Assembly: GCA_016792865.1 (NCBI GenBank) | Contig: JAEUMJ010000022.1 | Coordinates: forward strand, 1 to 44,227 | Length of the DNA stretch: 44,227 bases | Source of the DNA: Hyphomicrobiales bacterium | Lineage (GTDB): Bacteria > Pseudomonadota > Alphaproteobacteria > Rhizobiales > Aestuariivirgaceae | Direction of reading: 5' to 3' | Shown here: positions 17,740 through 39,194 of the stretch, one piece after another | Layout: each line of letters opens with the position of its first letter | How positions within the stretch are numbered: the first letter of the stretch is position 1 | Translations under genes and position numbers: made by a program | The notes under the pieces: generated by a model | Database searches by the model: none | The model's input: only the letters and a program-made list of their open reading frames with translations | Told to the model about the DNA's origin: nothing

Positions 17740-17794
17740 CCCCGCCGCAATAGCAAAGGCTTTCGCAGAAGTCGCCCAAGAAACCGACAGGATG

Positions 17795-17940
17795 AGTGGC
17801 GAGACCACCATGGGCCGTGGGAACGTACGATCCCGGGTCCCTACTCGCGTAGGTGGGCGCCGTTTATGCCAGGCCACGACCCGGCGCAGGGACAGCTCCC
17901 AATGGTATCGTTTATAGGCCCCAGGGAATAAAGGTTCCTT
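17795..17940 (-). ncRNA. ssrS: Probable 6S RNA (SsrS)
   Basis: No protein fits, but the minus strand folds as a long rod. The outer stem pairs 17917-17926 (CCCTGGGGCC) with 17808-17816 (GGCCCATGG). An inner stem pairs TGGGA at 17897-17901 with TCCCA at 17818-17822, a terminal stem pairs CCGGGTC (17878-17884) with GACCCGG (17833-17839), and a GCGA-tetraloop hairpin CCTAC/GTAGG lies at 17840-17853. The open region between outer and inner stems would be the promoter-mimicking bubble that binds RNA polymerase-sigma70. Position directly upstream of ygfA on the same strand is the classic 6S location. The ends are estimated to about 10-15 nt. Confidence 0.72.
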
Positions 17941-18050
17941 CACGCACCGGGCAGTCTCGCCGGGGGCTGATGTAGGGGTTTGGGACCACGAAGTCCAGTT
18001 CAGGCGTGGGCGCGCTGCGCGGGCACGAGACCGGCTGCTGCCGCCAGTCG

Positions 18051-20546
18051 CTACTGCAACAGGTCAATGTCCTGCTGGCGGACCTGATAGGTTGCGGTGA
18101 AGCGGATTTCGTCACCTGGCCGGAGCGTGTCCCAGACGCCGTTCGCGACGGCATCCGCTGAATCTCCCAATGGTGCCATGTCGGCCAGAATCACTTCCGA
18201 GCCGGGAACGGGGGCAGCGCCGTAGCCATTGGCGACATCCCCCACATTCACATTGGTCAGGGTCTGGTTGCCACTGTTGCGCACGCGGTAGGTGTAGGTG
18301 ACGGTTGCTCCCACTGCCACGTTCGACGCCGGAAGGGCCTCCTTCACGATGGTGAGGGCGGGCGCAACCGACAGCGCGACCGCTGCCGAACCGCTGCCGG
18401 AGACGGCGGCGGAATTGTAGGTCGTGGCCGCCGTGGCCGTATTGTCAATGTCGCCGTCCCCGCCACCGTTGCTGTCGAAGTCAGCCTGGGTTGCGGCATA
18501 GCTCAAGGTGCAGGTCTCCGATGCCGCCGGTGCGAGGCTTGCAATCACGTTGTTGCCGCTGCTCGCACAGGTGACTGCGCCCCTGGGGTCAGTGACAGTG
18601 ACCGACGCCAGGGTCACGTTGCCGGGATTGCTGACGGTAAGCGTATAGGTGATGACCTGTCCCGCCGCGCTCACGCTTGCCGGGCTAGCCGCCTTCGCCA
18701 CGGCCAGTTGCGGTGCCGCTGCTGCATTGGTGAAGACGCAGGTGATGTCGGCCCCATGAACGACGCGCGCCGCAGCAATGACGACGGCGCCCCCCGAACC
18801 CGTGGCGACGGGTGTCGGATTGCCGGTCACGGATGCATTGGCGTCGGTGCACGTCACGCCGCCCCGCACCCATGCGAGCGAGACCGTCTCGCTGATCGAG
18901 ACGGCGGTCGCGACGGTCGTGACGTTGATCGCCGACGGAGCAGCGGGGGTTGCCGTCCCGGCGCTCGCGGTGGTGATCGGCGAAGGTGTGCCGGCCAGGT
19001 TGGCGGTGGTGAAGCTGAAGGGTCCACCCGCTCCACCGGTCGTGATCTTCTGTACACGGACAACCGGAATCCGGTTGTTGGTGAAGGTGCAGACGATGTT
19101 CGCGGTCGCTGCGGTTGCCGCCGCATTGAGTGTAAGCACATTCCCTGCAAGCGTGGCGGTGCCGCCGCTGCCCATCCCCGTGCAGTTCGCGGATGCAAGC
19201 TGCCAGCCGGAAGGGATTGTCTCGGTGACGGTCGTCGTCGTTGACGCGGCTGTGAGCGTGAAGACGGCGCTGCTCGCCGGGTTTGATGACGCCGTATTGA
19301 GGGAGGTCGGGGTCACTCCGTTCGTGCCTGAGAAACTGAATGAGCCTGAGCCGCCAACCGATTGTTTTACAATCTGGATTGTTGGTCTCTTGTCGTTGAC
19401 GACGGCACAGGTGATGACCGCCCCTGCCCGCACGTTCGCCGCTGCAAGCGTGATCGTGTAGCCGGACACGGCGGCCGTGAAGCTGGCGGGATTGCCGGAT
19501 GCCGCACTATTGGAGTCGGTGCATGTTGCGGGCGTCGTGGTGATGAGCCAACCGGCTGCACCCGTTTCATCGATCGCGGTGTTGGTGTTGATGTTCCACA
19601 GTCGGGTGAAGCTGCCGTTCACTGCCGTTCCGGCGGTCGCGGTCGTGATCGAGGAGCTTGCCGTCTGCGCACTCCATGTGGAACCATCGAAGACATTGGC
19701 AGTCGAGAAGTTGAAGGTGCCCACACCGCCGTTCGAGGTCTTCTGCAAGCGCAGTTGCGGCGCACGGGTGTAGGTCACGGTTTCGATGTACACGAATTGC
19801 TGGGTCGGGTTGGTGACGTTGCTGTTCGCACCCGAGATGTGCCGGATGGTGAGCGTGCGGATCGGCCCTGCAAAGGTGACGGTGACGTTGCCGGAATTGT
19901 CGGTGACGTTCTGGTTGGTTGAAAGGGCGCGACCCGAGCCTGCGTTCCATGTCACGATCGACGGATTGGCGGGCGTGCCTGACGTTGGCATCACCGTGGC
20001 ACCGGCGGCACTGGTGGCGCGGAACTCGACAATGTCATTGAAGGCCGCACCCGACATGATGAATGTCGGCCCGCCGTCGATGTCACCGACAATCACGCTG
20101 ACATTGTAGACCGGTTCATTGAAATTGATCGTGGTGGTCTGGACGGCGGTTTCATTGTCCACCGCCGCGTTCATGGTGGAGTTGACGTATCCCGTCGTGC
20201 CGTTCGAGGTGGACGCAGGCTCGATGGCAAGCGCATTTCCGGTCGCATCATAACTGCCCGCCGCGTTGCCGCTCGTGACGATGGTCAGTTGCGTGGGCGC
20301 CGTGCCGAGGGTGACGGAGTCGGTTGCGCCGCTTCGCAGGTTGGTGAAAGGGCGCGTGTTCCAGCTCAGCGTGTCGGCCTGCGCAACCGCACAGGACCAC
20401 AACAACGCAAACAGACAGGCAATGGCGCCCAGGGCACCTTTGTGCAAACCGCGATACAACACTGACCCACGCACTCGGACAACATCACACCTTGCATGCA
20501 GGACTGCAGGCAAGGGGCGGAAGCGCCTCCCCAGAGGCAATGCCAC
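18051..20546 (-). CDS. Secreted repeat protein with DUF11 domains
   Basis: Large exported, probably surface-associated protein of unknown role. The open frame is 831 codons. The true start is uncertain: no candidate has a good ribosome site, and GTGs at 20474 or 20462 place the signal peptide (GALGAIACLFALLWSCAVAQA) properly at the N-terminus. An N-terminal domain of about 200 residues is followed by three homologous units of about 110 residues starting LRLQKTSNGGVGTF, IQIVKQSVGGSGSF and VRVQKITTGGAGGPF, each ending with a Cys in ITCAVVND- or VCTFTN-like text. Two DUF11 units follow (LAVAKAASPASV and LTIVKEALPASN). The last stops at QQDIDLLQ, where further strand sequence (NTATA-like) would usually follow, so the C-terminus may be truncated. 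Composition is Thr/Ala/Ser/Val-rich. Confidence 0.82.
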   Translation of the reverse strand: MALPLGRRFRPLPAVLHARCDVVRVRGSVLYRGLHKGALGAIACLFALLWSCAVAQADTLSWNTRPFTNLRSGATDSVTLGTAPTQLTIVTSGNAAGSYDATGNALAIEPASTSNGTTGYVNSTMNAAVDNETAVQTTTINFNEPVYNVSVIVGDIDGGPTFIMSGAAFNDIVEFRATSAAGATVMPTSGTPANPSIVTWNAGSGRALSTNQNVTDNSGNVTVTFAGPIRTLTIRHISGANSNVTNPTQQFVYIETVTYTRAPQLRLQKTSNGGVGTFNFSTANVFDGSTWSAQTASSSITTATAGTAVNGSFTRLWNINTNTAIDETGAAGWLITTTPATCTDSNSAASGNPASFTAAVSGYTITLAAANVRAGAVITCAVVNDKRPTIQIVKQSVGGSGSFSFSGTNGVTPTSLNTASSNPASSAVFTLTAASTTTTVTETIPSGWQLASANCTGMGSGGTATLAGNVLTLNAAATAATANIVCTFTNNRIPVVRVQKITTGGAGGPFSFTTANLAGTPSPITTASAGTATPAAPSAINVTTVATAVSISETVSLAWVRGGVTCTDANASVTGNPTPVATGSGGAVVIAAARVVHGADITCVFTNAAAAPQLAVAKAASPASVSAAGQVITYTLTVSNPGNVTLASVTVTDPRGAVTCASSGNNVIASLAPAASETCTLSYAATQADFDSNGGGDGDIDNTATAATTYNSAAVSGSGSAAVALSVAPALTIVKEALPASNVAVGATVTYTYRVRNSGNQTLTNVNVGDVANGYGAAPVPGSEVILADMAPLGDSADAVANGVWDTLRPGDEIRFTATYQVRQQDIDLLQ

Positions 20547-20613
20547 CAGGGAGAAGCCTATGATGTTATGGTAAATCGAGCCTTAATGTCCGGGCGTGAA
20601 GCGCGGCAGGAGA

Positions 20614-21261
20614 TTACCCGAACTTGAAATCCGTGACATGCGCAGGAGGCGTCAGCCCCGGCACGAGGCGCGGATCATCGATGGGCGGCCCGAAGCGGTA
20701 ACCAATCGGAATGATGCCCGCCCAGATCGGAAGCGCGTAGTCCTCCTCGTCATCTCCCGGCGGCCCGTTCCGCACCTTGGCGGAGACTTCGTTCAGTTCG
20801 AGGCCCAGCACGGTCGTTGCCTTGAGTTCCTGTGCTGTCATCCTGCGCAACATCTCCCAGCGGCCCGGGAACAATGCCTCGGTAAAGGCTTTCAGGCGCG
20901 CTTCCTTCTCGCCTGCATCCGTCACCTTGAAGGCTTTTCCGAAGGCCATCACCGAACGGTAGTTGCAGGAATGATTGTAGGCCGACCGCGCCATCACCAT
21001 GCCGTCGAAAATGGTGACGTTCACGCACACGTCCGCGTCTTCCGCCGTTTCCAGCATCCGGCTGGCCGAAGAGCCGTGCCAGTAGATGTGGTTGCCTTCG
21101 CGCCATTGCAGCGTGGGAGTCACCACGGGAGAACCATTGAAGACATAGCCCACGGTACACAGCGGCTGCGCATCGAGAATGGGATGAATGGTCGCCTCGT
21201 CGTAGTGGGCCCTCTTGTTCATGCGCTTCACGCGGGTCCGGTCGCTGGGTGCAACGGTCAT
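20614..21261 (-). CDS. Pyridoxamine 5'-phosphate oxidase family (FMN-binding split barrel) protein
   Basis: Flavin-binding split-barrel protein of the PNPOx-like/NimA-like group; the exact reaction is unknown. The start at 21261 has AAGGAG six nt upstream; 215 residues. The barrel contains VGYVFNGSPVVTPTLQWREGNHIYWHG and VCVNVTIFDGMVMARSAYNHSCNYRSVMAFG. It is divergent from a MocR regulator with only 58 bp between starts, so regulation by that PLP-dependent regulator is likely. That points to vitamin B6 or amine metabolism, but this is inference. Confidence 0.87.
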   Translation of the reverse strand: MTVAPSDRTRVKRMNKRAHYDEATIHPILDAQPLCTVGYVFNGSPVVTPTLQWREGNHIYWHGSSASRMLETAEDADVCVNVTIFDGMVMARSAYNHSCNYRSVMAFGKAFKVTDAGEKEARLKAFTEALFPGRWEMLRRMTAQELKATTVLGLELNEVSAKVRNGPPGDDEEDYALPIWAGIIPIGYRFGPPIDDPRLVPGLTPPAHVTDFKFG

Positions 21262-21274
21262 GCTTAACTCCTTG

Positions 21275-21303
21275 TTGTCACTCCTCCTTGCAAGCTCTAT
21301 GGT
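21275..21303 (+). promoter_or_regulatory. Sigma70-type promoter of the MocR gene
   Basis: TTGTCA (21275-21280), a 17-nt spacer, then TATGGT (21298-21303). Transcription would begin near 21310, about ten nt before the ATG at 21320, and so rules against using the earlier ATG at 21299. Confidence 0.5.
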
Positions 21304-21343
21304 CTGGCGAAAAGAACCAATGGCTACAGCAAAGACCAGACCA
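21300..21343. promoter_or_regulatory. Inverted repeat TGGTCTGG-N28-CCAGACCA, candidate MocR operator
   Basis: Two perfect 8-bp half sites, at 21300-21307 and 21336-21343. The left half overlaps the -10 of the mocR promoter and the right half lies just inside the coding start. Half-site centres are 36 bp apart, about three and a half helical turns. A dimeric regulator bound here would block its own gene and could also control the divergent PNPOx-like gene. Function is inferred. Confidence 0.45.
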
Positions 21344-22783
21344 CTTATCACAAGCGCCACCCTGGACCTGGGCATCGACAGGAAGGATACGGAAGCCTTC
21401 CAGTCGCAGATAGCCCGTCAGGTGCGCGAACTCGTGCTTTCCGGGCGCCTGAAACCGGGCGTGAAGCTGCCATCCAGCCGCGCCCTGAGCGAGCAGCTTG
21501 GCGTCGCCCGCGCCACGGTGGTGGACGCCTATGAGCAATTGCTGGGTGAAGGCTATCTCGAAACGCGCCTCGGTTCCGGCACCGCGGTCGCCGCGGAATT
21601 GCCGGAAGCCCTGCTCTCCACCGGCAAGGGGAAGTCTGCTCCAGCCATGCCGGCGCAGCGCCAGAAGCGGGAACCCGCCAGGCCATTTCGGGCCGGGCTG
21701 GTGGATTGGGAACACTTCCCGCACGATGACTGGGGCCGCATCCTTGGCCGCTATTGGCGAAACCCGCCGATCACATTGCTCGAACACAACGATCCCTTCG
21801 GCTGGATGCCGCTGCGCAAGGCCATCGCGGCTCACCTGTTCGACTGGCGCGGCATTGCCTGTGAAGCCGAGCAGGTCATCATGACGGCGGGCGGCAGCGA
21901 CGCCTTCGATCTGGTGCGCCGCGCCGTTTTCAATCCGGGTGAACAGTTGTGGCTGGAAGACCCCGGCTACCCGACCGCCCGGCGCGTGTTCAGTCTTGCC
22001 GGCATCAAGGTTGAAGCCGTCGCCATCGACAACGAGGGCCTGATGGTGAGCGAAGCAAGCCAGCGCTTCCCGAAGGCGCGGGGTGCATTCGTCACCCCGG
22101 CCCGGCAGTATCCCACGGGAGTGACCATGCCGCTGACACGGCGGCTGGAGCTTCTTGCCTGGGCAAAGCAGGCCAACGCCATCATCATCGAGGATGACTA
22201 CGACAGCGAGTACCGCTACGTGGGCCGCCCCTTGCCTGCCCTCATGAGTCTCGACCGCGACGCCCGCGTGATCTACTCCGGCACCTTCTCGAAAGTGTTC
22301 TCGCCCATCATCCGCCTCGGCTTCATCGTGGTGCCGAAGCGGCTCATCGAGGTGTTCCGCCACGAGCGCACCACCTTCGGTGCGCCACCTTCCCTGCTGG
22401 TGCAGCCCGCCCTGGCGCAATTCATGGAAGACGGGCAATTCGCGGTGCACATCCGGCGGATGCGGCGGCTCTATTCGGCCCGGCGCGATTGCCTGATCAA
22501 GGCGCTCTCTCCGGGTGAACCGTCACTGTTCAAGCTGGATGCGCCGCCTTCGGGCCTCATGCTACTGTTGCGCTTCCCGCAGAAGACCGATGATGAGGCC
22601 CTGCACCGGGCGCTGCTCGATGAGGGCATCGAAACGCTTTCGCTCTCCGAGCACTATGCCGGAAAGAAGCAGGAAAAGGGCCTGCTTCTGAGCTTCGCCG
22701 GATTTCACGAGGAAGACCTGGAGAAGGCCGCAGCCCGCCTGCTCGATGTGCTCAGGAGCCGAGCGGCCGCAGCTCGCGGATGA
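21320..22783 (+). CDS. MocR/PdxR-type regulator (GntR winged helix fused to fold-type I aminotransferase)
   Basis: One-component regulator that senses PLP or amino compounds. In 487 residues the GntR winged helix (about 20-90) shows LKPGVKLPSSRALSEQLGVARATVVDAYEQLLGEGYL; after a linker the aminotransferase-like domain (about 120-480) shows VIMTAGGSDAFDLV, TPARQYPTGVTM, IIEDDYDSEYRY and, around the PLP lysine, YSGTFSKVFSPIIRLGF. The start at 21320 is chosen because of the promoter at 21275-21303. It overlaps the convergent DUF1194 gene by 32 nt. PdxR-like function is plausible given the divergent PNPOx-like neighbour. Confidence 0.92.
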   Translation: MATAKTRPLITSATLDLGIDRKDTEAFQSQIARQVRELVLSGRLKPGVKLPSSRALSEQLGVARATVVDAYEQLLGEGYLETRLGSGTAVAAELPEALLSTGKGKSAPAMPAQRQKREPARPFRAGLVDWEHFPHDDWGRILGRYWRNPPITLLEHNDPFGWMPLRKAIAAHLFDWRGIACEAEQVIMTAGGSDAFDLVRRAVFNPGEQLWLEDPGYPTARRVFSLAGIKVEAVAIDNEGLMVSEASQRFPKARGAFVTPARQYPTGVTMPLTRRLELLAWAKQANAIIIEDDYDSEYRYVGRPLPALMSLDRDARVIYSGTFSKVFSPIIRLGFIVVPKRLIEVFRHERTTFGAPPSLLVQPALAQFMEDGQFAVHIRRMRRLYSARRDCLIKALSPGEPSLFKLDAPPSGLMLLLRFPQKTDDEALHRALLDEGIETLSLSEHYAGKKQEKGLLLSFAGFHEEDLEKAAARLLDVLRSRAAAARG

Positions 22784-23438
22784 GCTTCTCGCGAATGGCG
22801 CGGGCATAGTCGGCGAAGCCCGAAGCCGGCTCGACAAAACTCTCGTTCCCGATGATCACCTTGGCCCTGTAATAGTCGGCAAGACCCACGCCATCGGCAT
22901 CGATGGGAAGGCCGTTCACCACGATCCCCCCGGCAAGGGCCGCATCGCGCGCCCTGTCGAGATCCTGCCCGCCATTGTCCACGCCGTCGCCGGACACGTC
23001 GATGACGCGCCTCTCACCCGCAAAGCCGTTCGCCTCGATGATCTCCACACCGTGCCCGATGGCTGTCGCAATGGATGTGGTGGAGGCCATGAAGGCCCGT
23101 CGCGCCCGGCTGATACGGAAGCCGAAGGCGCGGGCATCGCGCGCCGAACCGAGGTAGGTGAACGGCAGGATCACCTTGGCTTCACCGTCCCCGCCCCACT
23201 GCGTCACGGCCACCGCCACGCCCTTTGGCCCGATGTTGGCGAGCGCTTCCAGCACGGCCTTGTCCCGGAAGGCGGCTGCCAGGCCCTTCAACTGCAAGTC
23301 GAATTCTGCCCGGTCCATGCTGGCGGAGGCGTCAAGCGCCAGAACCAGTTCCACCGCCACAGGCTGTGGTCCCGCGGCATCTGCTGCGCCTCCTGCGAGA
23401 AGAAGGGCCAGCAGCCGCGCCGCCATGCCGCGCCACAT
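22752..23438 (-). CDS. DUF1194 family secreted protein with von Willebrand A-like fold (copy 2)
   Basis: Paralogue of 12090-12776. The start at 23438 gives 228 residues, exactly the length of copy 1, with the MIDAS motif DASAS at the same residues 36-40, a signal peptide (about 1-22), AVTQWGG, RRAFMASTTSIATAIGHGVEII, RRVIDVSGDGVDNGG and YYRAKVIIGNESFVEPASGF. An upstream ATG at 23471 would overlap the divergent PCu(A)C start. The 31-bp gap between divergent starts suggests shared control with the copper chaperone gene. Function unknown. Confidence 0.85.
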   Translation of the reverse strand: MWRGMAARLLALLLAGGAADAAGPQPVAVELVLALDASASMDRAEFDLQLKGLAAAFRDKAVLEALANIGPKGVAVAVTQWGGDGEAKVILPFTYLGSARDARAFGFRISRARRAFMASTTSIATAIGHGVEIIEANGFAGERRVIDVSGDGVDNGGQDLDRARDAALAGGIVVNGLPIDADGVGLADYYRAKVIIGNESFVEPASGFADYARAIREKLIRELRPLGS

Positions 23439-23469
23439 TCCGCCCGCTTTCCCTGCTAAGACGTGCGCC

Positions 23470-23955
23470 ATGCTCAACCGACGCTCCCTCCTGCTTTCGC
23501 TCGCCCTTCTGCTTGCCCTTCCCGCCGGGGCATCCGCAAGTGACATCATGGTGATGAATGCCGTCGCGCCGAAGTCGCTCACGCCCTCGGCCAGGTCCGC
23601 CGCAGTCTACATGATGCTCATGAACCACGGCAGCGCCGCGGACGTGCTGGCGAAGGTCGAGACACCCGTTGCCGATCATGCCACGGCGCATCAATCCATC
23701 GAGGAAGACGGCGTGATGAAGATGCGCGAGGTTGAAGCCTTCGAACTCAAGGCGGGCGACATGATCAGCTTCGCTCCCGGTGGCTATCACGTCATGTTGA
23801 CGGGATTGAAGTCACCGCTCAGGACAGGCGACAGCTTCCCCCTCACGCTCACCTTCAAATCCGCCGGCGAGGTCAGGGTGGAGGTGAAGGTCGTGGACAA
23901 GGTCGATGGCGCAATGAACCACGAAGGCATGAACCACGAAGGCATGTCCGACTGA
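23470..23955 (+). CDS. PCu(A)C family periplasmic copper chaperone
   Basis: Periplasmic Cu(I) chaperone family that supplies cytochrome oxidase CuA/CuB centres. In 161 residues the full ligand pattern H-x10-M-x21-H-x-M is present: H74, M85, H107 and M109, the last two within PGGYHVML. The N-terminus MLNRRSLLLSLALLLALPAG fits a twin-arginine-like signal. The C-terminus carries two tandem copies of MNHEG encoded by a 15-nt direct repeat, a His/Met-rich tail that could bind extra copper. No Sco or oxidase gene is nearby. Confidence 0.92.
   Translation: MLNRRSLLLSLALLLALPAGASASDIMVMNAVAPKSLTPSARSAAVYMMLMNHGSAADVLAKVETPVADHATAHQSIEEDGVMKMREVEAFELKAGDMISFAPGGYHVMLTGLKSPLRTGDSFPLTLTFKSAGEVRVEVKVVDKVDGAMNHEGMNHEGMSD
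23914..23943 (+). repeat. Tandem 15-nt repeat coding MNHEG-MNHEG
   Basis: Two exact copies of ATGAACCACGAAGGC (23914-23928 and 23929-23943), followed by a third ATG. The repeat is in frame at the end of the PCu(A)C gene and adds His and Met residues; copy number could vary between strains by slippage. Confidence 0.85.
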
Positions 23956-23956
23956 A

Positions 23957-24316
23957 CTAGGGCAAGTCCTCGACAGCGATGAGCGTGATCAGGCCCGCAT
24001 CGTCGAATGTCACCTTCTCGATGCCGCGCCGCTCCGTCACCGCCCCCGTCGTCTTGTTCACGGCACGCAGGCGCCAGCGGCTTTCGGCGCTCCGTGGACC
24101 TGTGGCCCTGACCTCATCATCGAAAGCCTGATGATCCGGCGAGGCCGCGAAATAGGCACGGATCGAGGCGAGAATGGCGTCACGCCCGATCACGTCACCG
24201 ATGGCCGGAGAGACATACCGCGCCTCCACTGCCAGGCACTTTGCCACCCCGTCCACATCCTGTGCATCCAGCACGGCGTGGTAGGCCACGAGCGCCGCAG
24301 CGGGATCGAAACTCAT
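23957..24316 (-). CDS. SnoaL/NTF2-like (ketosteroid isomerase fold) protein
   Basis: Small cone-shaped alpha+beta barrel protein of 119 residues with typical opening helices (VAYHAVLDAQDVDGVAKCLAVEARYVSP) followed by IGRDAILASIRAYFAAS. No catalytic signature identifies a substrate. Its start overlaps the stop of the peptidase gene upstream by 4 nt (ATGA), so it is the third member of a peptidase-peptidase-NTF2 operon. It ends 1 bp from the stop of the convergent copper chaperone gene. Confidence 0.82.
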   Translation of the reverse strand: MSFDPAAALVAYHAVLDAQDVDGVAKCLAVEARYVSPAIGDVIGRDAILASIRAYFAASPDHQAFDDEVRATGPRSAESRWRLRAVNKTTGAVTERRGIEKVTFDDAGLITLIAVEDLP

Positions 24317-25710
24317 TTGCCAAGCTCGGCAATGATGCGCACCCAGCTCCGCATGCCGTGATGGAAGCTCGACACGTTGTACTTCTCGTTGGGTGAATGA
24401 ATGGCGTCGTCGTCAAGGCCGAACCCCACGAGCACGCTGTCCATGCCGAGAATGTCCTTGAAGTAGCGCACGATCGGAATGGAGCCGCCGCCGCCCATCA
24501 TCACGGTCTCGCGCCTGAATTCCGCCTTCAGGGCCGCCGCCGACTTGCGGATGAACGGGTTCTTTTCATCGATGGTGGAGGCCGGGCTGCCGCCGCCCTT
24601 GCCGGAGAAGGTGATCTTCGCGTCACCCTTCATCTGCTTCCTGGCGAAGGTCTGGAATGCCTTGATCACCTTCTTGGGGTCCTGCTTCCCGACAAGCCGG
24701 AAGGTGAACTTGGCATGGGCCTGGGAGGGGATCACCGTCTTTGTGCCTGCTCCGGTGTAGCCGCCCCAGATGCCGTTCACCTCTGCCGTGGGCCGCGACC
24801 AGATCTGCTCCAGCACGCTGTAGCCCTTTTCGCCCGCCGCAGTCTTCAGGCCGACATCGCCGAGGAATTTCCGGTCCGAGAACTTCAGCGACCGCCACTG
24901 CTTCTTCACCGGGGCGGGAAGCTCCGATACGCCGACATAGAATCCGGGAATGGTGACCTTGCCCTTCTTGTCGTGAATGGCGGCGATCATCCCGGACAGC
25001 GCCCGGATGGGGTTCATGGCGGGGCCGCCGAACATGCCGGAGTGGAGATCGATGGAAGGGCCGGTCACCGTCACTTCTTCATGGGCAAGGCCGCGAAGCC
25101 GCGTTGTGATGGCGGGGGTCTTCACGTCCCACATGTTGCTGTCGCACACGAAGGCCGCGTCGCAGGCAAGTTCCTTCCGGTTGGCTTCAAGGAAGGGAAC
25201 AAGCGAAGGCGATCCGCTTTCCTCTTCGCCCTCGATCAGGAATGTGGCCTTGATCGGCAACTTGCCGTCCACCTTGATCATGGCGCGGGCAGCTTCCACG
25301 AAGGTCATGAGCTGGCCCTTGTCGTCTGCGGTGCCACGGCCCACAAGCTGATCGACGCCCTTCTTGTTTTTCTTGCGTACCGGCTCGAAGGGCGGCGTGT
25401 GCCAGAGTTCCAGCGGGTCGGCCGGTTGCACGTCATAGTGGCCGTAGAACAGCACATGCGGCGTTTTCGCCGTGGCGTCGGGCGGCGTGTAGTGGCCGAC
25501 AACCATCGGGCGGCCGGGCGTGGGACGCACCGAGGCCTCGCAGCCGATGGCGGACAGCTCGTTGCAGATCCATTGCGCCGCCTTCTCGCAATCACCGGCA
25601 TAGGCCGGGTCGGCGGAAATGGAGGGAATGCGCAGGAAGGAGAACAGCCGCTCGATGATCCCGTCCAGCGATTGATCGATGTCGGCCAGCGCCGCGTTCA
25701 CGTTGCTCAT
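24313..25710 (-). CDS. M20 family dipeptidase/metallopeptidase (second tandem copy)
   Basis: Di-zinc peptidase of the CNDP/ArgE/DapE superfamily, 465 residues, cytoplasmic (no signal peptide). Metal ligands and catalytic residues are in place: FYGHYDVQPADPLE (His and general-base-partner Asp), GTADDKGQ (bridging Asp), IEGEEESGSPS (catalytic and metal Glu), CDSNMW (Asp) and the late LDDDAIHSPNEKY (His). The dimerisation domain covers about 190-310 (TGPSIDLHSGMFGG). It overlaps the preceding peptidase by 4 nt and shares its overall architecture. Peptide substrate unknown. Confidence 0.93.
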   Translation of the reverse strand: MSNVNAALADIDQSLDGIIERLFSFLRIPSISADPAYAGDCEKAAQWICNELSAIGCEASVRPTPGRPMVVGHYTPPDATAKTPHVLFYGHYDVQPADPLELWHTPPFEPVRKKNKKGVDQLVGRGTADDKGQLMTFVEAARAMIKVDGKLPIKATFLIEGEEESGSPSLVPFLEANRKELACDAAFVCDSNMWDVKTPAITTRLRGLAHEEVTVTGPSIDLHSGMFGGPAMNPIRALSGMIAAIHDKKGKVTIPGFYVGVSELPAPVKKQWRSLKFSDRKFLGDVGLKTAAGEKGYSVLEQIWSRPTAEVNGIWGGYTGAGTKTVIPSQAHAKFTFRLVGKQDPKKVIKAFQTFARKQMKGDAKITFSGKGGGSPASTIDEKNPFIRKSAAALKAEFRRETVMMGGGGSIPIVRYFKDILGMDSVLVGFGLDDDAIHSPNEKYNVSSFHHGMRSWVRIIAELGK

Positions 25711-27131: not shown

Positions 27132-27178
27132 TGCGAATCCCTCTTTGTTGCTGTGAAGTTATCCCAAAGGATGGCAGC

Positions 27179-28783: not shown

Positions 28784-28785
28784 AG

Positions 28786-30719: not shown

Positions 30720-31282
30720 TTCATCGCCTTCGCAACATCGCCCACCACGCGGGCTGCATCTTCCGGGCTGTGCCACATCTCGTCCATGGGACGGATAAAG
30801 TCGGGCCTCTGCGGCAGAAGTGCGGCAAGCCCGGCGGCATCCACGGGGTCAAATGCCACAGCCGGAACCTCGAAAATATCCTGCCACCAGGCAATCAGCG
30901 GCTCGCCATGGGCCTGCGAGGCCTGCGCGAAGGCAATGTAATCCGCGCCCGCTTCCGCCGCCTCCATGGCGATGTGGCGGGAGGTGGCGGCAAACACGCC
31001 GATACTCTCGTTCTTGAGCGTGGCGCGCAGCGATTTCACCGGTTGTGCCCGTGCAATGTGGATGCCGTCGGCCTTGAGGTAGTGCACCTGCCGGGGTTCG
31101 CAGTCACGGATGATGACGGCAAGTCCCAGGGCCTGAAGGGCGGGCACCGTGGCGGCGGCAATCTTCTCGCCCACCAGGATGGAGGCGCAATCTCCCGACC
31201 GGGTGGCGGCGGCAGCGCAGGACAGCAGGAGGTCGTCCGCAATGTCTGCGGGGGCGGCAAGGAAGAAACGGGGTGTGTTCAT
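30716..31282 (-). CDS. Thiamine phosphate synthase-like (ThiE-fold) protein, divergent
   Basis: TIM-barrel protein of the ThiE/TenI superfamily. The start at 31282 (MNTPRFFLAAP) gives 188 residues. Landmarks are degenerate: VIIRDCEP stands where ThiE has INDR, KADGIHIA where it has GADGVHLGQ, IGVFAATSRHIAMEAAEAGADYIAFA for the substrate loop, and the early Gln-x-Arg-x-Lys pyrimidine/diphosphate motif is not seen. It may not make thiamine phosphate. Coupled by 4 nt to a periplasmic Sel1 protein, an unexpected partner for a thiamine enzyme. Confidence 0.75.
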   Translation of the reverse strand: MNTPRFFLAAPADIADDLLLSCAAAATRSGDCASILVGEKIAAATVPALQALGLAVIIRDCEPRQVHYLKADGIHIARAQPVKSLRATLKNESIGVFAATSRHIAMEAAEAGADYIAFAQASQAHGEPLIAWWQDIFEVPAVAFDPVDAAGLAALLPQRPDFIRPMDEMWHSPEDAARVVGDVAKAMK

Positions 31283-31315
31283 GGCCCCGGCTCTATCACC
31301 GGGCGACATGCCTTG

Positions 31316-32506: not shown

Positions 32507-32545
32507 GAGGACAGCGTGTTTGGCCGAGCATCCCCACCGGGGCAA

Positions 32546-32566
32546 GCAGCCTTTTCGCAAGGCTGC
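32546..32566 (-). terminator. Hairpin downstream of pgk
   Basis: Perfect 8-bp arms GCAGCCTT and AAGGCTGC around a five-base loop, 24 nt beyond the pgk stop. On the minus strand only two T residues follow, so termination would be weak or factor-assisted. Confidence 0.4.
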
Positions 32567-32590
32567 CATTCCCCGGCGCGGCTCATGGCA

Positions 32591-33775
32591 TCAGGATTCG
32601 AGGGCCTTCACGCCCGGCAGTTCCTTGCCTTCCAGCCATTCCAGGAAGGCACCACCTGCCGTTGAGATATAGGTGAAGTCATCTGCTGCACCGGCATGGT
32701 TGAGCGCCGAAACGGTATCGCCTCCGCCCGCAACCGTCACCAGCTTGCCGGCCCTGGTAAGGGCGGCGGCGTGTTGCGCAACGGCATTGGTCGCCGTGTC
32801 GAAGGGCGCAATTTCAAAGGCGCCCATCGGGCCGTTCCACACCACGGTCTTGGCATTGTCGAAACAGGCTTTCACCTTGGCAATGGATTGCGCACCCACG
32901 TCGAGGATCATTTCATCTGCCGCCACGTCATTCAGTCCCACGCTGCGCGATGCGGCGCCCGCCTTGAACTCCTTCGCCACCACGGCATCGTCCGGCAGCA
33001 GCAATGTGCAGTTCCGTTCCTTGGCCTTCGCCAGGATCTCCCTGGCCGTGGGAATGAGATCGTGCTCGCACAGCGACTTGCCGACGTTCACGCCTTGCGC
33101 GGCGAGGAAGGTGTTGGCCATGCCGCCGCCGATCACGATGGTGTTGGCAATGCCGGAGAGATTGCCGAGCAGTTCGAGTTTCGTCGAGACCTTGGCGCCT
33201 CCGACCACGGCCACGAGCGGGCGCGTGGGTTTTTCCAGGGCGGCTTGCAGCGCCTTCAGTTCGGCCTCCATGGCGCGGCCCGCATAGGCGGGAATGACAT
33301 GGGCAATGCCCTCGGTGGAGGAATGCGCACGGTGCGCAGCCGAGAAGGCGTCATTCACGAAGATGTCGCCGAGGCCGCCCAGCATCCGCGCAAAGGCGGA
33401 ATCGTTCTTTTCTTCACCGCCGTGATACCGGGTGTTCTCCATCAGCGTCACCGTGCCGGGCCGGGCCTCCACGGCGGGGGCCGACTGCCAATCCGTGAAA
33501 ACGAACGTCACGGGCTGGCCCAGCGCCTGTTCCAGTGCGGGCGCAACCGGCTTCAACGACATTTCCGGAATGACCTTGCCCTTGGGGCGATCGAAATGCG
33601 CGAGGATGATGACGGCAGCGCCTTTCTTCAGCAGTTCCTTCAGCGTGGGCACAACGCGGTCGATGCGGGTGGTGTCGGTCACCACGCCATCCTTGATCGG
33701 CACGTTGAGATCGAGGCGGATCACGACTTTCTTGTTGGCGACGTTCACATCATCAAGGGTGCGGAAGGCGGGCAT
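32591..33775 (-). CDS. pgk: Phosphoglycerate kinase
   Basis: Glycolytic/gluconeogenic enzyme interconverting 1,3-bisphosphoglycerate plus ADP and 3-phosphoglycerate plus ATP. 394 residues, full length. The N-terminal substrate domain has [15 protein letters not shown] and [10 protein letters not shown]; the hinge [16 protein letters not shown] is present; the C-terminal nucleotide domain ends with [15 protein letters not shown] and [26 protein letters not shown] lies eight nt before the start. The gap gene, commonly its neighbour in this group, is not in the window. Confidence 0.97.
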
Positions 33776-33850
33776 TGCATGGTCTCCATGGGCGTGAGTG
33801 AGGGGCGTACCTCAGCGCGCTTGCGATTTCAATGCGTCAGAAAGGCGGCG

Positions 33851-34945
33851 TCAGGGCACTGCGGAAATGAGCAGGAACATGGCGAAGATCGAGAGATGGA
33901 CCACGCCGGAAAGGATGTTGGTTCGCCCATTGCTGAGCGTGACCGCGCTCACGAAAAGGGCCAGCACGAGCAGCACGGTCTGGCTGGGTGAAACGCCCAG
34001 CGCAATGTTGTAGCCCGCCAGAAGGTCGGCCATGGCCACCGCCGGAATGGTAAGGCCGATGGTGGCGAGGCCGGAGCCCAGCGCCAGGTTCACGCTCACC
34101 TGCAACCGGTTGGCAATGGCGGCGCGCACGGCGGCGATGCCTTCCGGCAGCAACACCATGGCAGCGATGATGACGCCCGTGAAACTGACGGGCAGCCCTG
34201 CCCCGGTGATGCCGTCGGCCAGAACGGGAGAGAGCGATTTCGCCAGCAGGATGACCGCCAGCAGCGACACGCACAGCATTGCCGCGCTCGTCGCAAGCGT
34301 GCCGGACGTGGGCATGACGGTGTTCTCGTCGCCGTTCTCCTCGCCTTCCGGAAGGAAATAGTCGCGGTGGCGAACCGTCTGCACGAAAAGGAAGGTGCAG
34401 TAGAGGCACAGCGAGGTGATCGCCACCATGAGGAGCTGCACATTGCTGAATGTGGGTCCGTAGGTCGCGATGGTGAAGTTGGGCAGGATCAGCGTGATCA
34501 CCGCGAGGACCGAAAGGACCGAAAGCGCCGACGAGGTTCCGCGGATGCGGATGGTCTGTTCGAAATGATGGCGGCTGCCGAGCAGGAGGCTGAGGCCCAC
34601 GATCGCCGTCGTGATGATCATGATGGCGGAATAGACCGTGTCACGCGCAATCGTCTCGCCGCCCTCGCCCGCCCCCACCATCAGCGAGAGGATCAGCCCC
34701 ACTTCCAGAACGGTGACGGCCAGCGCCAGCACGATCGAACCCAACGGCTCACCCACACGGGCGGCAATGAGTTCCGCGTGGTGGACCGCGGCAAAGACAG
34801 ATCCCCCGAGCAGCAGCGCCACGACCAGCGCAATGCCAGCATGCAGGGAGGGAGAATAGCCCATTGCAATTGCGCCCAGCGCCGCGATTCCTGCGGCGGG
34901 AAGCACGATCGTCCAGAGTGGATTTTCAATCCTGTGCGCCGCCAT
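33851..34945 (-). CDS. Calcium:cation antiporter (CaCA family, ChaA-like)
   Basis: Inner-membrane Ca2+(Na+)/H+ antiporter. The start at 34945 follows AGGA by eight nt and gives 364 residues with about eleven membrane helices. The two alpha repeats with their acidic centres are visible: LALAVTVLEVGLILSLMV with GGETIARDTVYSAIMIITTAIVG, and GVIIAAMVLLPEGIAAVRAAIANR with LGSGLATIGLTIPAVAMA. An acidic loop EGEENGDEN separates the halves. It lies between pgk and tkt in place of the gap gene usually found there. Confidence 0.9.
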   Translation of the reverse strand: MAAHRIENPLWTIVLPAAGIAALGAIAMGYSPSLHAGIALVVALLLGGSVFAAVHHAELIAARVGEPLGSIVLALAVTVLEVGLILSLMVGAGEGGETIARDTVYSAIMIITTAIVGLSLLLGSRHHFEQTIRIRGTSSALSVLSVLAVITLILPNFTIATYGPTFSNVQLLMVAITSLCLYCTFLFVQTVRHRDYFLPEGEENGDENTVMPTSGTLATSAAMLCVSLLAVILLAKSLSPVLADGITGAGLPVSFTGVIIAAMVLLPEGIAAVRAAIANRLQVSVNLALGSGLATIGLTIPAVAMADLLAGYNIALGVSPSQTVLLVLALFVSAVTLSNGRTNILSGVVHLSIFAMFLLISAVP

Positions 34946-35035
34946 CAAATGTTCCTGCTTCTGATACGGAAACACTGTAGGGACGGAGCACGGGGGCGTC
35001 CAGTGTTGAGGGCAGAAGAAACAACTGGACACACT

Positions 35036-35051
35036 GTATCCAAATGGATAC
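35036..35051 (+). promoter_or_regulatory. Palindromic operator of the toxin-antitoxin module
   Basis: GTATCC-AAAT-GGATAC is a perfect 6-bp inverted repeat immediately upstream of the toxin start, overlapping a -10-like GATACT. A further half copy (GTATCC) lies at 35064-35069. Such palindromes are bound by the helix-turn-helix antitoxin for autorepression. Confidence 0.6.
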
Positions 35052-35060
35052 TAACGACGA

Positions 35061-35372
35061 ATGGTATCCTTCATTCAATCTTCCGTCTTCGCGGCGTGGC
35101 TGCGGGGCTTGAACGACGAAGGTGCCAAAGCCCACATTCTGCGCCGGATTTCGAGCGCTGAATTGGGGCATTTCGGGGATTGCAAGAGTGTGGGTGAAGG
35201 CATCTCGGAGATGCGCATTCACCATGGCCCGGGGTATCGGCTTTACTTCATTCGCAGAGGCAGCACGGTTTACGTCCTGCTCTGAGGCGGGAACAAGTCG
35301 ACTCAGAAGAGAGACATCCAGGCCGCCAAGAAGATTGCGCGGCTGATCAAGGAACAGGCGAATGACGCGTAG
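35061..35372 (+). pseudogene. HigB/RelE-like addiction module killer protein, interrupted by in-frame TGA
   Basis: Family: RelE/HigB-type mRNA interferase (TIGR02683 group). The frame starting at 35061 reads SVFAAWLRGLND, GISEMRIHHGPGYRLYFIRR and STVYVLL, then a TGA at 35283-35285, and resumes in the same frame as GGNKSTQKRDIQAAKKIARL until TAG at 35370-35372. Intact relatives read LLCGGDKSTQ at this point, so a TGC cysteine codon has become TGA. The product is cut to 74 residues and lacks the conserved C-terminal strand and helix, so is probably inactive. The full-length frame overlaps the antitoxin start by 11 nt, as in intact operons. Confidence 0.85.
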
Positions 35373-35658
35373 ATCGAAGATCACTTTCTCGAAGTTCGAT
35401 GTGGCGGATTACCTCGACAATGAGAAAGTCATTGCCGCGTATCTTTCTGAAGCGGCGCAGGACGACAATCCAGACGTATTGCTGAAGGCCCTCGCAGACG
35501 TGGCAAAGGCGCGGGGCATGGCTCAGGTGGCGAAGGACTCGGGCCTCGGCCGCGAGAGCCTTTACAAGGCCCTCGCACCGGGTGCGAAGCCGCGTTACGA
35601 AACCATCGCCGCCGTGATGCGTGCGCTCAAGGTCAAGTTCGAAGTCGCAGTAAAGTGA
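35362..35658 (+). CDS. Addiction module antidote protein (HigA-like, TIGR02684 group)
   Basis: Intact 98-residue antitoxin. The N-terminal half (ITFSKFDVADYLDNEKVIAAYLSEA) is the toxin-binding part; the C-terminal helix-turn-helix (AKARGMAQVAKDSGLGRESLYKALAPG) should bind the palindrome upstream of the toxin. It overlaps the 3' end of the broken toxin frame. With the toxin apparently dead, it may persist as an anti-addiction module or by chance. Confidence 0.93.
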   Translation: MTRRSKITFSKFDVADYLDNEKVIAAYLSEAAQDDNPDVLLKALADVAKARGMAQVAKDSGLGRESLYKALAPGAKPRYETIAAVMRALKVKFEVAVK

Positions 35659-35839
35659 CCTAAGCCATGGCGATGATAACTATTAACTGCAGGCTTTGAT
35701 TACTCGGGTCGAAACTTGATCAACACCATCCAAACTGAAAACAGCCTCTAGTTCACTCATTTCATATGGCGCCGCAGCGATAACTACCGCGCTGACCCCT
35801 CACCTTCTCGGGGGCAGGCTCTTCAGGTGACGGAAAGAA
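35659..35839. other. AT-richer spacer between antitoxin and tkt
   Basis: About 180 nt without a gene. The first 100 nt are clearly richer in A and T than the surrounding genes, which fits a transferred toxin-antitoxin element flank. Near 35797-35815 a C-run and G-run (CCCC/GGGG) could form a hairpin after the tkt stop, but no tidy terminator is seen. Confidence 0.4.
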
Positions 35840-37810
35840 TCACTTCGCCGTCGCCGCCTTCACCACGGCCTTGGCCGTGATGCCGAACTTTTCGTAAAGC
35901 TGCTCGGCGGGGCCGGAGGCACCGAAGCCGGTCATGCCGATGAACTTGCCGTCCGCGCCGATGAAGCGGTCCCAGCCCATGCGAAGCCCGGCTTCCACCG
36001 CGATGCGGATCTTCTCGGTGCCAAGCACCTTTTCCTTGTAGGCCTTCGACTGCTTTTCAAACAGCTCCATGGAGGGCACGGAAACGACGCGGGTCGGGAT
36101 GCCCTTCTTGTCGAGCATGGCCTTCGCTGCGATGGCGATTTCCACTTCCGAGCCGCTTGCGAAGATCACGGCCTTGGCCTTCTTCTTCGATTCCGCAATC
36201 TCGTATGCACCCTGGGCGCAGAGGTTCCTGGCGGAATAGGACAGGCGCGCCGGCAACAGCTTCTGGCGCGTGAGAACCAGCGTCGATGGCGTGGCCTTGC
36301 TCTCCAGCGCGATCTGCCAGCACTCGGCCGCTTCCACCGCATCGCAGGGGCGCATGACCAGATGGTTGGGAATGGCGCGGCAGGCGGCAAGATGCTCGAC
36401 CGGCTGATGCGTGGGGCCATCCTCGCCGAGGCCGATCGAATCGTGCGTCATCACGAAGATGGAACGGATGCCCATGAGCGCGGCAAGGCGCATGGAAGGG
36501 CGGCAATAGTCAGTGAAGCAGAAGAAGGTGCCGCCATAGGGAATGACGCCGCCATGCAGGGCGAGGCCGTTCATCGCGGCGGCCATGCCATGCTCGCGGA
36601 TGCCGTAGTGCACATAGCGGCCCGCATAGTTGGAGGCGGAGAACACCACCATGTCCTTCGACTTGGTGTTGTTGGAGCCGGTGAGGTCGGCCGATCCGCC
36701 CATGGTTTCCGGCACCGCGGCATTGATCACGTCGAGGGCATTCTGCGATGAGTTGCGGGTGGCGATATGCGGCGGCTTCTTCGCCAGTTCCTTCTTGTAG
36801 TCGGACATCACCTTTTCGAAATTGTCCGGCAGCTTGCCCGCCATGATGCGGTTGAACCACGCCTTGCTGGGCGAGGTCGACAGACGCCCTTCCCAGGCCG
36901 TGCGTTCGGCCTTTCCGCGTGCGCCTGCCTCGCGCCAGGCATTGAGGATGTGCGGCGGAATCTCGAAAGCGGGCCACGGCCAGTCCAGTTCCTTGCGGGT
37001 GAGTGCGATTTCTGCATCACCCAGCGGAGAACCGTGGGCCTGATAGCTGTCCTTCTTGTTGGGCGAACCCCAGCCGATGATGGTCTTGGCGGCAATCAGC
37101 ACGGGCTGATCGGAAAGCTGTGCTGTTGCCAGCGCCACGGAAATGGCGGTGTGATCGTGACCGTCGCAGCGCAGGACCTTCCAGCCGGACGCTTCGAAAC
37201 GCTTCACCTGATCGGTGGAGTCGGCCATGGAGATGCGGCCATCGATGGAAATGTTGTTGTCGTCCCAGATGACGATGAGGTTCTTGAGCTTGAGATGCCC
37301 GGCAAGGCTGATGGCTTCCTGGCTGATGCCTTCCATGAGGCAGCCGTCACCTGCCAGGACATATGTCTTGTGGTTGACCAGATCGTCACCGAACTGGGCG
37401 TTGAGGTGGCGTTCGGCCATGGCGAAGCCGACAGCGTTGGAAATGCCCTGTCCCAGCGGACCCGTTGTTGTCTCGATGCCGTCGGCGTGGCCGTATTCCG
37501 GGTGCCCCGCCGTCTTCGCCCCCAACTGCCGGAACTTCTTGAGGTCTTCGACCGTCATGTCCTTGTACCCGGTAAGGTACAGGAGGTTGTAGAGGAGGAT
37601 CGAGGCATGGCCAGCCGAGAGGATGAAGCGGTCCCGGTCGGGCCAGTTGGGGGCCGACGAATCAAACTTCAGGAACTTCGTGAACAGGACTGTGGCCACG
37701 TCAGCCATTCCCATGGGCGCTCCGGGATGGCCGGAATTGGCCTTCTGCACGGCATCCATCGACAAGGCGCGGATGGCGTTGGCCATGGAGCGGGGCGTAA
37801 CTTCGGTCAT
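35840..37810 (-). CDS. tkt: Transketolase
   Basis: Thiamine-diphosphate enzyme of the pentose phosphate/Calvin pathways. The start at 37810 (MTEVTPRSMANAIRALSMDA) gives 656 residues, the usual length. Motifs: KANSGHPGAPMGMADVATVL, the ThDP/Mg signature GDGCLMEGISQEAISLAGHL ending in the Asn of WDDNNISIDG, FCFTDYCRPSMRLAALM in the Pyr domain, and a C-terminal domain with EAGLRMGWDRFIG. It is divergent from the DUF4164-zapA pair, as in other Hyphomicrobiales. Confidence 0.96.
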   Translation of the reverse strand: MTEVTPRSMANAIRALSMDAVQKANSGHPGAPMGMADVATVLFTKFLKFDSSAPNWPDRDRFILSAGHASILLYNLLYLTGYKDMTVEDLKKFRQLGAKTAGHPEYGHADGIETTTGPLGQGISNAVGFAMAERHLNAQFGDDLVNHKTYVLAGDGCLMEGISQEAISLAGHLKLKNLIVIWDDNNISIDGRISMADSTDQVKRFEASGWKVLRCDGHDHTAISVALATAQLSDQPVLIAAKTIIGWGSPNKKDSYQAHGSPLGDAEIALTRKELDWPWPAFEIPPHILNAWREAGARGKAERTAWEGRLSTSPSKAWFNRIMAGKLPDNFEKVMSDYKKELAKKPPHIATRNSSQNALDVINAAVPETMGGSADLTGSNNTKSKDMVVFSASNYAGRYVHYGIREHGMAAAMNGLALHGGVIPYGGTFFCFTDYCRPSMRLAALMGIRSIFVMTHDSIGLGEDGPTHQPVEHLAACRAIPNHLVMRPCDAVEAAECWQIALESKATPSTLVLTRQKLLPARLSYSARNLCAQGAYEIAESKKKAKAVIFASGSEVEIAIAAKAMLDKKGIPTRVVSVPSMELFEKQSKAYKEKVLGTEKIRIAVEAGLRMGWDRFIGADGKFIGMTGFGASGPAEQLYEKFGITAKAVVKAATAK

Positions 37811-38001
37811 GGGAATCGGCCTTTCTGGCGGGAGTTTCAATGGGATCGCGCTTCTGATAACAGCCGGGGAAACCCTGTCAATGCGGGGTCGCAGCACTGT
37901 TTGCGGGCGATTGCTTCCCAAAGCGGTCAGCTTTATGGTGCAACGAATTGTGTGTGCTTGAGAATCTCCGGTTACTGCTCTAGTGGAGTGTCAGGACGGA
38001 C

Positions 38002-38286
38002 ATGGCAGAATCAACGAAATTCGAAGCCTCTCTTCAGCGGTTTGAAAAGGCCCTGAAGCTGATCGAAGCTTCCCTTGCAAGAAAGCAGGCTGAAAACGCC
38101 CGCCTGAAGACGCTTGAGATCGAGAAAGCCACTCTCGAATCCGATCGTCAGCGCATGGACCGTGAATTGGCGCAGGTGCGCGTGAAGGCACAGGAACTGG
38201 TGGACACTTCCAAGCAGGCTGTGGGCAAGATCGATAGCGCCATGTCGCGCATTCGCTCTGTGCTGCACTCGAACAGCGGCCAATAG
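38002..38286 (+). CDS. DUF4164 family coiled-coil protein
   Basis: Small conserved alphaproteobacterial protein of 94 residues, almost wholly predicted coiled coil (heptads through FEASLQRFEKALKLIEASLA and LETLEIEKA-like text to about residue 80). Function unknown; its constant pairing with zapA suggests a cell-division accessory role. Eight nt separate its stop from the zapA ATG. Confidence 0.85.
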   Translation: MAESTKFEASLQRFEKALKLIEASLARKQAENARLKTLEIEKATLESDRQRMDRELAQVRVKAQELVDTSKQAVGKIDSAMSRIRSVLHSNSGQ

Positions 38287-38294
38287 GAGTGGTC

Positions 38295-38639
38295 ATGGCA
38301 AATGTCGTCGTCAACATCGCCGGTCGCCCCTACACCATGCAGTGCCCTGACGGTGAGGAAGATCATCTGAAGGATCTTGCCAAGCTGCTGGATACCGAAG
38401 TGGGCCGCATCCGCCAGAGCGTGGGCGCCATCGGTGACATCCGCCAGCTGGTGATGGCGGGCCTCATGGTGGCCGATCGCCTGTCCGAGGCAACACGCAA
38501 GCTGGAAGACATGCAAGACCAGCTGGATGGCCTTCGCATCAGCCGTGATCAGGCCCTGCAACAGATCCGCCAGCAGGACGAGAATTTTGCCAAGGCGCTG
38601 GAAATCGCCGCGCAAAAGCTGGAGGAAATGGCGCAGTAA
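38295..38639 (+). CDS. zapA: Cell division protein ZapA
   Basis: FtsZ-ring stabilising protein. The start at 38295 follows AGGAG by six nt (a GTG at 38289 is within the leader) and gives 114 residues. The N-terminal domain reads VVVNIAGRPYTMQCPDGEEDHLKDLAKLLD; the rest is a coiled coil (about 60-114). In many proteobacteria, including E. coli, zapA is followed by 6S RNA and ygfA on the same strand; here it is followed instead by a convergent unknown gene 10 nt away, and 6S-ygfA is about 20 kb to the left. Confidence 0.94.
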   Translation: MANVVVNIAGRPYTMQCPDGEEDHLKDLAKLLDTEVGRIRQSVGAIGDIRQLVMAGLMVADRLSEATRKLEDMQDQLDGLRISRDQALQQIRQQDENFAKALEIAAQKLEEMAQ

Positions 38640-38649
38640 TCCTGTCGCC

Positions 38650-39063
38650 TCATGCCGCTTCGCATCTGAGATATGTATGGGGCCTGCGATCCTTTTCGCT
38701 TGCCCCTTCCGTGGTCAGCGTGACCTCGAGCTCCCCGGCGCGCAAGCGCCTGTAGACATAGCTCTCCGAGTAACTGTCGAGTCCGTCTTCACAGGACGCC
38801 GCAAGCGCCCAGGTGTTTTCGCCCGTCTTCTCCACACGCGACCAGGCGCAACCGCCCTCCCAGAATGAAATGCCGTCAGCGCTGACGGTCCAGGGAGTCG
38901 TATCGGCATTTTCCACGCCGCTTACGGCCCTCGCCCGCAGCATGGCGCAGCCCTCCGGGTTCAGCACGTATGTACCGTCAATGAAATCGGCCTTGTCTTG
39001 CGCCAGCGCAACCGGGGACAAGAACAGAAAGACAGAGGCCAAAGCTGGAATGGGGCGGTACAT
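38650..39063 (-). CDS. Hypothetical secreted protein with four cysteines
   Basis: Not recognised. The start at 39063 follows GAGGAG by about eight nt; 137 residues. Signal peptide about 1-20 (ASVFLFLSPVALA), mature part beginning QDKADFIDGTYVLNPEGCAML; four cysteines (in EGCAM, GGCAW, ASCED and LRCEA) could form two disulfides. The pattern of alternating strands and an early GTYVL suggests a small beta-barrel or lipocalin-like fold, but this is a guess. It ends 10 nt from the zapA stop. Confidence 0.72.
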   Translation of the reverse strand: MYRPIPALASVFLFLSPVALAQDKADFIDGTYVLNPEGCAMLRARAVSGVENADTTPWTVSADGISFWEGGCAWSRVEKTGENTWALAASCEDGLDSYSESYVYRRLRAGELEVTLTTEGASEKDRRPHTYLRCEAA

Positions 39064-39158: not shown

Positions 39159-39194
39159 ATGAAACCGCTTCCCGAATCCAGAGGAGATCCATCC

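Follow-up and report, generated by a model that had tools for sequence, protein, structure and literature searches.

Rows in which zapA, ssrS (the gene for 6S RNA) and ygfA follow one another were described in a comparison of EVE gene neighborhoods, and the passages of that paper dealing with ssrS present the ssrS-ygfA pair as broadly conserved, alphaproteobacteria included (PMC7641849). According to the same passages, it is in beta and gamma groups, and not in alpha groups, that ZapA and EVE genes flank ssrS (PMC7641849). In cyanobacteria, the 6Sa (Yfr7) RNA is placed downstream of purK in the part of the source that deals with its position (PMC1242208). Here we examine a stretch of 44,227 nucleotides from a Hyphomicrobiales bacterium of the Aestuariivirgaceae (contig JAEUMJ010000022.1 of assembly GCA_016792865.1), hereafter "the window", which is the whole of contig C104 in a draft assembly of 214 contigs. 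The window contains the three components of the rows described in those passages of PMC7641849 and keeps the 6S-ygfA order; zapA, however, is parted from 6S and turned round. The two lie on opposite strands, 20,328 bases apart, and a zapA-ssrS-ygfA unit is not found. No EVE domain was detected among the proteins scanned. The zapA-6S split in the window is confirmed, and a literature search found no title or abstract opening reporting it. The reading that we favor, with a probability of roughly 0.8, is a clade-specific break of the row ymdB-ygfA-6S-zapA-DUF4164 that took place by at least two events and spared 6S.

The features on the 6S side of the window are the following:

16,349-17,170, minus strand: ymdB, encoding a YmdB-like phosphoesterase (Pfam PF13277, E 1.9e-98)
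17,161-17,739, minus strand: ygfA, encoding 5-formyltetrahydrofolate cyclo-ligase (Pfam PF01812, E 4.8e-27, residues 76-253 of a long open reading frame)
17,798-17,960, minus strand: 6S RNA, ssrS (Rfam RF00013, 66.4 bits, model positions 1-187 of 187, E 4.4e-11)
17,970-17,997, minus strand: 6S promoter-like element, TGGAC-N16-CCTACAT (28 bases), 9 bases before 6S
17,998-18,050, no strand: left junction, separating the promoter-like element from the repeat protein stop codon
18,051-20,546, minus strand: repeat protein adjoining 6S (Pfam: three SpaA_4 and two DUF7507 stretches)

An earlier interpretation made from the DNA letters (the sequence-only reading) had placed 6S at about 17.8-17.94 kb on the minus strand, with ygfA and ymdB behind it and zapA on the plus strand ending at 38,639. 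The covariance model search supported the RNA assignment at 17,798-17,960 (minus), since the score of 66.4 bits exceeds the gathering score of 46.4 and the match spans the full model; no other RNA in the window reaches the Rfam gathering score. The fold has a z-score of -3.4, and none of 200 shuffled sequences folds as well. The window RNA thus resembles 6S RNA (RF00013) both in matching the covariance model over its full length and in its stable rod-like fold, and is unusual only in its neighbors. Pfam agrees with the protein assignments on both sides. The ygfA gene lies directly behind 6S on the same strand, as in described ssrS-ygfA arrangements, with a gap of 70 bases by alignment; its start was set by us at the ATG downstream of 6S (the mechanical open reading frame, 17,161-17,943, crosses 6S).

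On the zapA side, the features are:

35,840-37,810, minus strand: tkt, encoding transketolase (Pfam PF00456, E 5e-131; best same-genus matches 70-87% identity)
38,002-38,286, plus strand: DUF4164 gene adjoining zapA (Pfam PF13747)
38,289-38,639, plus strand: zapA (Pfam PF05164, E 5.1e-21)
38,640-38,649, no strand: right junction, immediately past the zapA stop codon
38,650-39,099, minus strand: gene for a small protein

The tkt start is an ATG picked by homology and represents our own reading. The gene located 10 nt past zapA had been described as unrecognized, and indeed its small protein has no Pfam match; a homologue adjoins zapA in a close relative (G012, 51%), and none was found beside zapA in another (G007).

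Gene order was compared in a main set of 37 genomes (that of the window and 36 of the same genus) and in a second set of 24 genomes, drawn from other genera of the order; in the adjacency counts, absence means that a gene was not found in the stretches compared, not that the genome lacks it. The usual order is ymdB, ygfA, 6S, zapA, the DUF4164 gene and a divergent tkt. Because of its spread in the genus and in the order, this arrangement looks ancestral, and 6S and zapA have been split more than once. In the main set, 6S and zapA are found within 300 bases on the same strand in 11 genomes and are separated by gaps of 0.4-4.7 kb in 11 others (including G024, whose 405-base gap contains 100 N and is of unsure length). 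Opposite strands are seen in six genomes and different contigs in four, while in the remaining five one partner was not found in the stretches compared. The 6S matches of two genomes (G003 and G011) score below the Rfam gathering score. If only genomes with both partners on one contig are considered, the 6S-zapA link is intact in 11 of 28, while zapA-DUF4164 is intact in 31 of 31, DUF4164-tkt in 30 of 30 and ymdB-ygfA in 34 of 35.

In the other genera of the order, 6S and zapA share a contig in 18 of the 24 genomes (distances read by hand, between alignments). The two are no more than 300 bases apart in 13 of these 18, unlike what the passages on alpha groups in PMC7641849 would suggest. Gaps of 0.7-2.0 kb are found in three (G041, G042 and G060) and a split in two (G049, 29.5 kb and opposite strands; G055, 440 kb); six genomes lack a match to 6S, zapA or both (G037, G038, G046, G050, G052 and G054). 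The split of G049, a member of another family, looks independent (G049:C1:189,574-219,554; loci L061 and L092).

When gene order was checked in the nearest relatives, as the sequence-only reading had proposed, the split proved to be common to the two closest and not to the wider genus. These relatives, G007 and G012, have the closest YmdB proteins (88% identity), and in both of them the repeat gene lies directly upstream of 6S. Contig C114 of G007 has the same gene succession as the window at 10.8-35.0 kb, and this region takes in the left junction together with block B and the greater part of block A (both described below), all in the same orientation. Its zapA gene is on contig C77, with cupin and uvrB genes beyond, and the row is either broken or unassembled between the Na/Ca exchanger gene and tkt. 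On C77 (G007:C77, L152), tkt is found at 35.7 kb and is not beside the Na/Ca exchanger gene; to its left, a DUF11-type match at 29.4-30.1 kb is present instead. In G012, both the repeat gene-6S and the zapA-small gene neighborhoods are shared with the window.

A quick tree was built from YmdB, transketolase and ZapA, with G040 as outgroup and G009 left out; eight of the 36 genus rows carried no arrangement label (among them G011, afterwards found intact), and the outgroup was unlabeled too. The window genome, G007 and G012 form one clade with a Shimodaira-Hasegawa-like approximate likelihood ratio test (SH-aLRT) value of 100. The next branches are G008 and then G004, in which 6S and zapA are on one strand, with inserts. 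On this tree, the labels change once for the split, once for a flip of 6S and five times for inserts. Hence, the split is not restricted to the window genome, nor is it ancient in the genus. By YmdB, the six nearest named records, at 74-79% identity, are metagenome-assembled genomes. A draft of 214 contigs might raise the suspicion that the window contig was misassembled, and the contigs of some relatives do end next to 6S or zapA. This explanation is, however, hardly credible, as G007 and G012 carry the junctions on contigs of their own.

The left junction was then considered in relation to the element that precedes 6S. Upstream of the element, the DNA of the window departs from that of canonical relatives. 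In one of the latter (G001), the zapA stop codon and the start of the element are no more than about 12 bases apart. The search pattern was TGGA[CT]-N14..19-C[CT]TA[ACT]AT, derived after viewing these sequences. Counted in 32 of the 36 genomes with a 6S match (those excluded being G003 and G010, both cut, G024, with N, and G025), the element with a 16-base spacing is found before 6S in 28, made up of 22 of 24 in a first set and 6 of 8 in a further set. It occurs in all four arrangements: canonical, gapped, flipped and split. Its distance to 6S is 8 bases, or 9 in the window and in G036, and the case of G011, where the model match is cut, was judged by eye. As to the misses, neither half is present in G008, only the second half in G020, and the first half together with a second half bearing one change in G006 and G035. 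A control search of 60 loci (1.92 Mb, both strands) yielded 21 pattern matches, all of them at 6S and none elsewhere. The element is a putative 6S promoter, and its form fits a housekeeping promoter.

The sequence-only reading had suggested that separating zapA from 6S could change the expression of both. One may thus imagine that the split rewired expression, with 6S sharing a transcript with the repeat gene and zapA released from 6S, and it is true that in the window 90 bases separate the repeat gene from 6S, which is on the same strand, and that the two are close to each other in G007 and G012 too. We give this scenario a small chance, however, as the element is retained in front of 6S whether the arrangement is canonical, gapped, flipped or split. 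Since the break spares the element, 6S probably keeps its expression after the split, and a change on the 6S side appears unlikely.

Two oddities at the junctions had been viewed as possible traces of the break. One was a repeat protein that seems to stop in the middle of a domain. The partial match is real, as the last DUF7507 stretch covers positions 1-61 of 105 only. Yet the repeat open reading frames found near 6S in the window, G007, G012 and G008 (two in the latter) end 2-3 residues past the same DI[DN] motif. Because the homologues stop at the same place, the end belongs to the family and is not a cut, and truncation of the repeat protein was discarded. In G008, the two SpaA/DUF7507 repeat open reading frames, kin of the gene at 18,051-20,546, lie on the other side of 6S, between 6S and ygfA (L158, G008:C27, 3,535-8,998). 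The other oddity was the short text GCAGTA, proposed as microhomology. It is present at both window junctions, at 38,633-38,638 on the plus strand and 18,057-18,052 on the minus strand, one base off the positions first reported. However, GCAGTA occurs nine times in the window when both strands are counted, and it is not found at both junctions in either sister: the repeat gene terminates with CTGCAGTGA and zapA with GGCTGA in G007, and with CATCAGTAG and GCGCACTAG, respectively, in G012. The microhomology was therefore rejected, and neither the partial repeat domain nor GCAGTA marks the break.

The DNA between the two junctions, past the repeat gene, can be divided into two blocks (identifications by Pfam, except for g34):

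20,614-29,805, no strand: block B, with Pyridox_ox_2, GntR-aminotransferase, DUF1194, SnoaL, two M20 peptidases, Na/sulfate symporter and Usp genes
29,802-38,639, no strand: block A, with Sel1, a TMP-TENI-like gene, MFS, pgk, the Na/Ca exchanger gene, g34, tkt, the DUF4164 gene and zapA

Block A is inverted relative to 6S when the window is compared with G004, G001, G018 and other genomes. The position of block B is different. In most relatives where it could be placed, it is on a contig other than that of tkt, and in no relative outside the clade where it was placed does it adjoin Sel1. Only two relatives have block B and tkt on one contig: in G020, block B is 59 kb beyond Sel1, and in G028 about 188 kb from tkt. 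In both of them it is downstream of tkt, with the same orientation to tkt as in the window, which agrees with what our favored reading predicts. The fact that block B is away from Sel1 in the relatives, combined with inversion of the joined A-B unit against 6S, indicates that at least two events took place. Hence, the single 20.6-kb inversion proposed by the sequence-only reading holds only in part: block A (zapA-tkt-pgk-Sel1) was turned against 6S, but block B lies elsewhere in relatives. A single inversion would require A and B to have been neighbors in the segment beforehand; the blocks have the orientation to each other that is seen in G020 and G028, which fits such a scenario. We regard it as unlikely, however: the comparison yielded no relative outside the clade in which A and B adjoin or the whole 20.6-kb segment is collinear and uninterrupted; the reciprocal junction was unseen in the flanks searched; and GCAGTA is not at both sister junctions, while the repeat protein is uncut.

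In our reading, block A (zapA to Sel1) would have been turned against 6S in the ancestor shared by three species that belong to the same uncultured genus, and at least one further event would have brought block B between 6S and block A. The breakpoint would have fallen in the short stretch that goes from the zapA stop codon to the 6S promoter-like element, a location that would leave 6S, ygfA and zapA intact and would let 6S keep the element. With the genes intact and the element kept, the change was probably near neutral. As to the course of events, the order of A and B may be old and the intervening DNA may have been lost or moved; the most probable course is a larger inversion, with ends between 6S and zapA and beyond block B, together with loss or removal of the DNA between A and B, which has in our opinion about an even chance of being correct. 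An alternative is that a local inversion affected block A alone (about 9 kb) and that block B and the repeat gene were then transposed beside 6S. Other lineages carry one or a few genes between zapA and 6S, so the spot accepts inserts, and the location of block B elsewhere in relatives is compatible with such a transposition. However, block B keeps the orientation to block A seen in G020 and G028, an orientation that an independent insertion would not have to preserve, and no mobile element family was found among the block B proteins scanned. We consider this course possible, if on the doubtful side.

Several observations weigh against the reading of a break by at least two events at a loose 6S-zapA link. 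To begin with, inversion of block A alone plus transposition of block B fits the data nearly as well. The ancestral 6S-zapA junction is seen, but the reciprocal one is not: a search of the 7-9 kb at the outer side of block B in five genomes (G004, G018, G002, G013 and G020) did not find the genes now located beyond zapA (the small gene, cobW, an SH3-domain gene, cupin and uvrB). In G004, uvrB lies 3.7 kb past Sel1, and in G018 it is on the ymdB side at a distance of about 197 kb; these positions demand a further move, and no one-step model accounts for them. Other links of the row are loose too, with ygfA-6S intact in 24 of 30 genomes and tkt-pgk in 17 of 27, so that 6S-zapA is the weakest link and not the sole weak one. 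Lastly, the promoter-like pattern was counted in the sequences from which it came, which makes the count descriptive, and it fails in the four genomes mentioned above.

Other arrangements of the locus were detected in the genus. In G013, G020, G023, G028 and G033, 6S has the opposite orientation to zapA; ygfA-ymdB lies at a distance of 1.6 Mb in G028 and is on a separate contig in the others. These five genomes form one group in the tree (SH-aLRT 96), with the unlabeled G025 inside. In G028 (L159, G028:C1:1,760,926-1,765,865), a glyoxalase-type gene, purE, purK and rpsU lie beyond 6S according to Pfam; the same purE-purK cluster genes were detected by similarity near the flipped 6S of G013, G020 and G023 (L167, L168 and L169), while the contig of G033 showed no match to the cluster in its remaining 2.1 kb. 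This placement resembles that of the cyanobacterial 6Sa RNA as given in the part of PMC1242208 cited above. However, a glyoxalase-type gene intervenes in the relatives studied here, and 6S points away from purE-purK.

Larger open reading frames from the inserts and from the surroundings of flipped 6S include genes of the arginine deiminase, cytochrome b561 and YdcZ exporter types, a transport permease, gamma-glutamyltranspeptidase, CYTH-CHAD, FeoB, ADYC, Sel1 and a type III polyketide synthase-like gene; others had no match. No integrase or transposase was found among the 20 larger proteins scanned, a set that did not include smaller open reading frames, a 1,104-residue one of G004 and the insert of G033. 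A dedicated mobile element in the zapA-6S slot was discarded, as the proteins scanned are differing ordinary ones or lack a match. A type III polyketide synthase-like open reading frame lies between 6S and ygfA in G012 (L155, G012:C124, 2,560-4,279). A tentative interpretation, to which we give somewhat less than an even chance, is that 6S and its 28-base element act as a self-contained cassette in a breakage-prone slot, with varied inserts, one block turned and one flip of 6S near purE-purK that recalls cyanobacterial 6Sa.

Altogether, the split appears to be a case of ordinary gene-order turnover, in which the weakest link of a known row gave way; the genus has undergone several insertions and rearrangements in this stretch, and the split is one of them. 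The split genomes are natural variants of a gene neighborhood that is conserved yet unexplained. If the zapA-6S linkage mattered for co-regulation, one would expect the genus to lose it less often. That 6S-zapA is often lost, with zapA-DUF4164 and ymdB-ygfA retained, suggests a link that persists chiefly for historical reasons and a 6S unit made of the RNA and its own putative promoter. What makes the locus interesting is mainly that the 6S-zapA link is loose, whereas the promoter-like element is firmly retained.

Two additional observations concern the surroundings of zapA. A CobW-type gene is present at 39,159-40,412 of the window. At E 1e-60, it was matched in one of 22 same-genus genomes searched (G019, in two pieces) and in three of 14 order-level relatives; no match at this threshold was found in the sisters G007 and G012, and the gene is missing between the corresponding neighbors in G012. 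For these reasons, cobW was discarded as part of the rearrangement, and its presence beside zapA is probably due to a later arrival. In G036, zapA is found on two contigs (at the end of C22, L161, and at the start of C111, L162), with 95% identity over 403 bases, which may reflect either a second copy or a mixture of strains.

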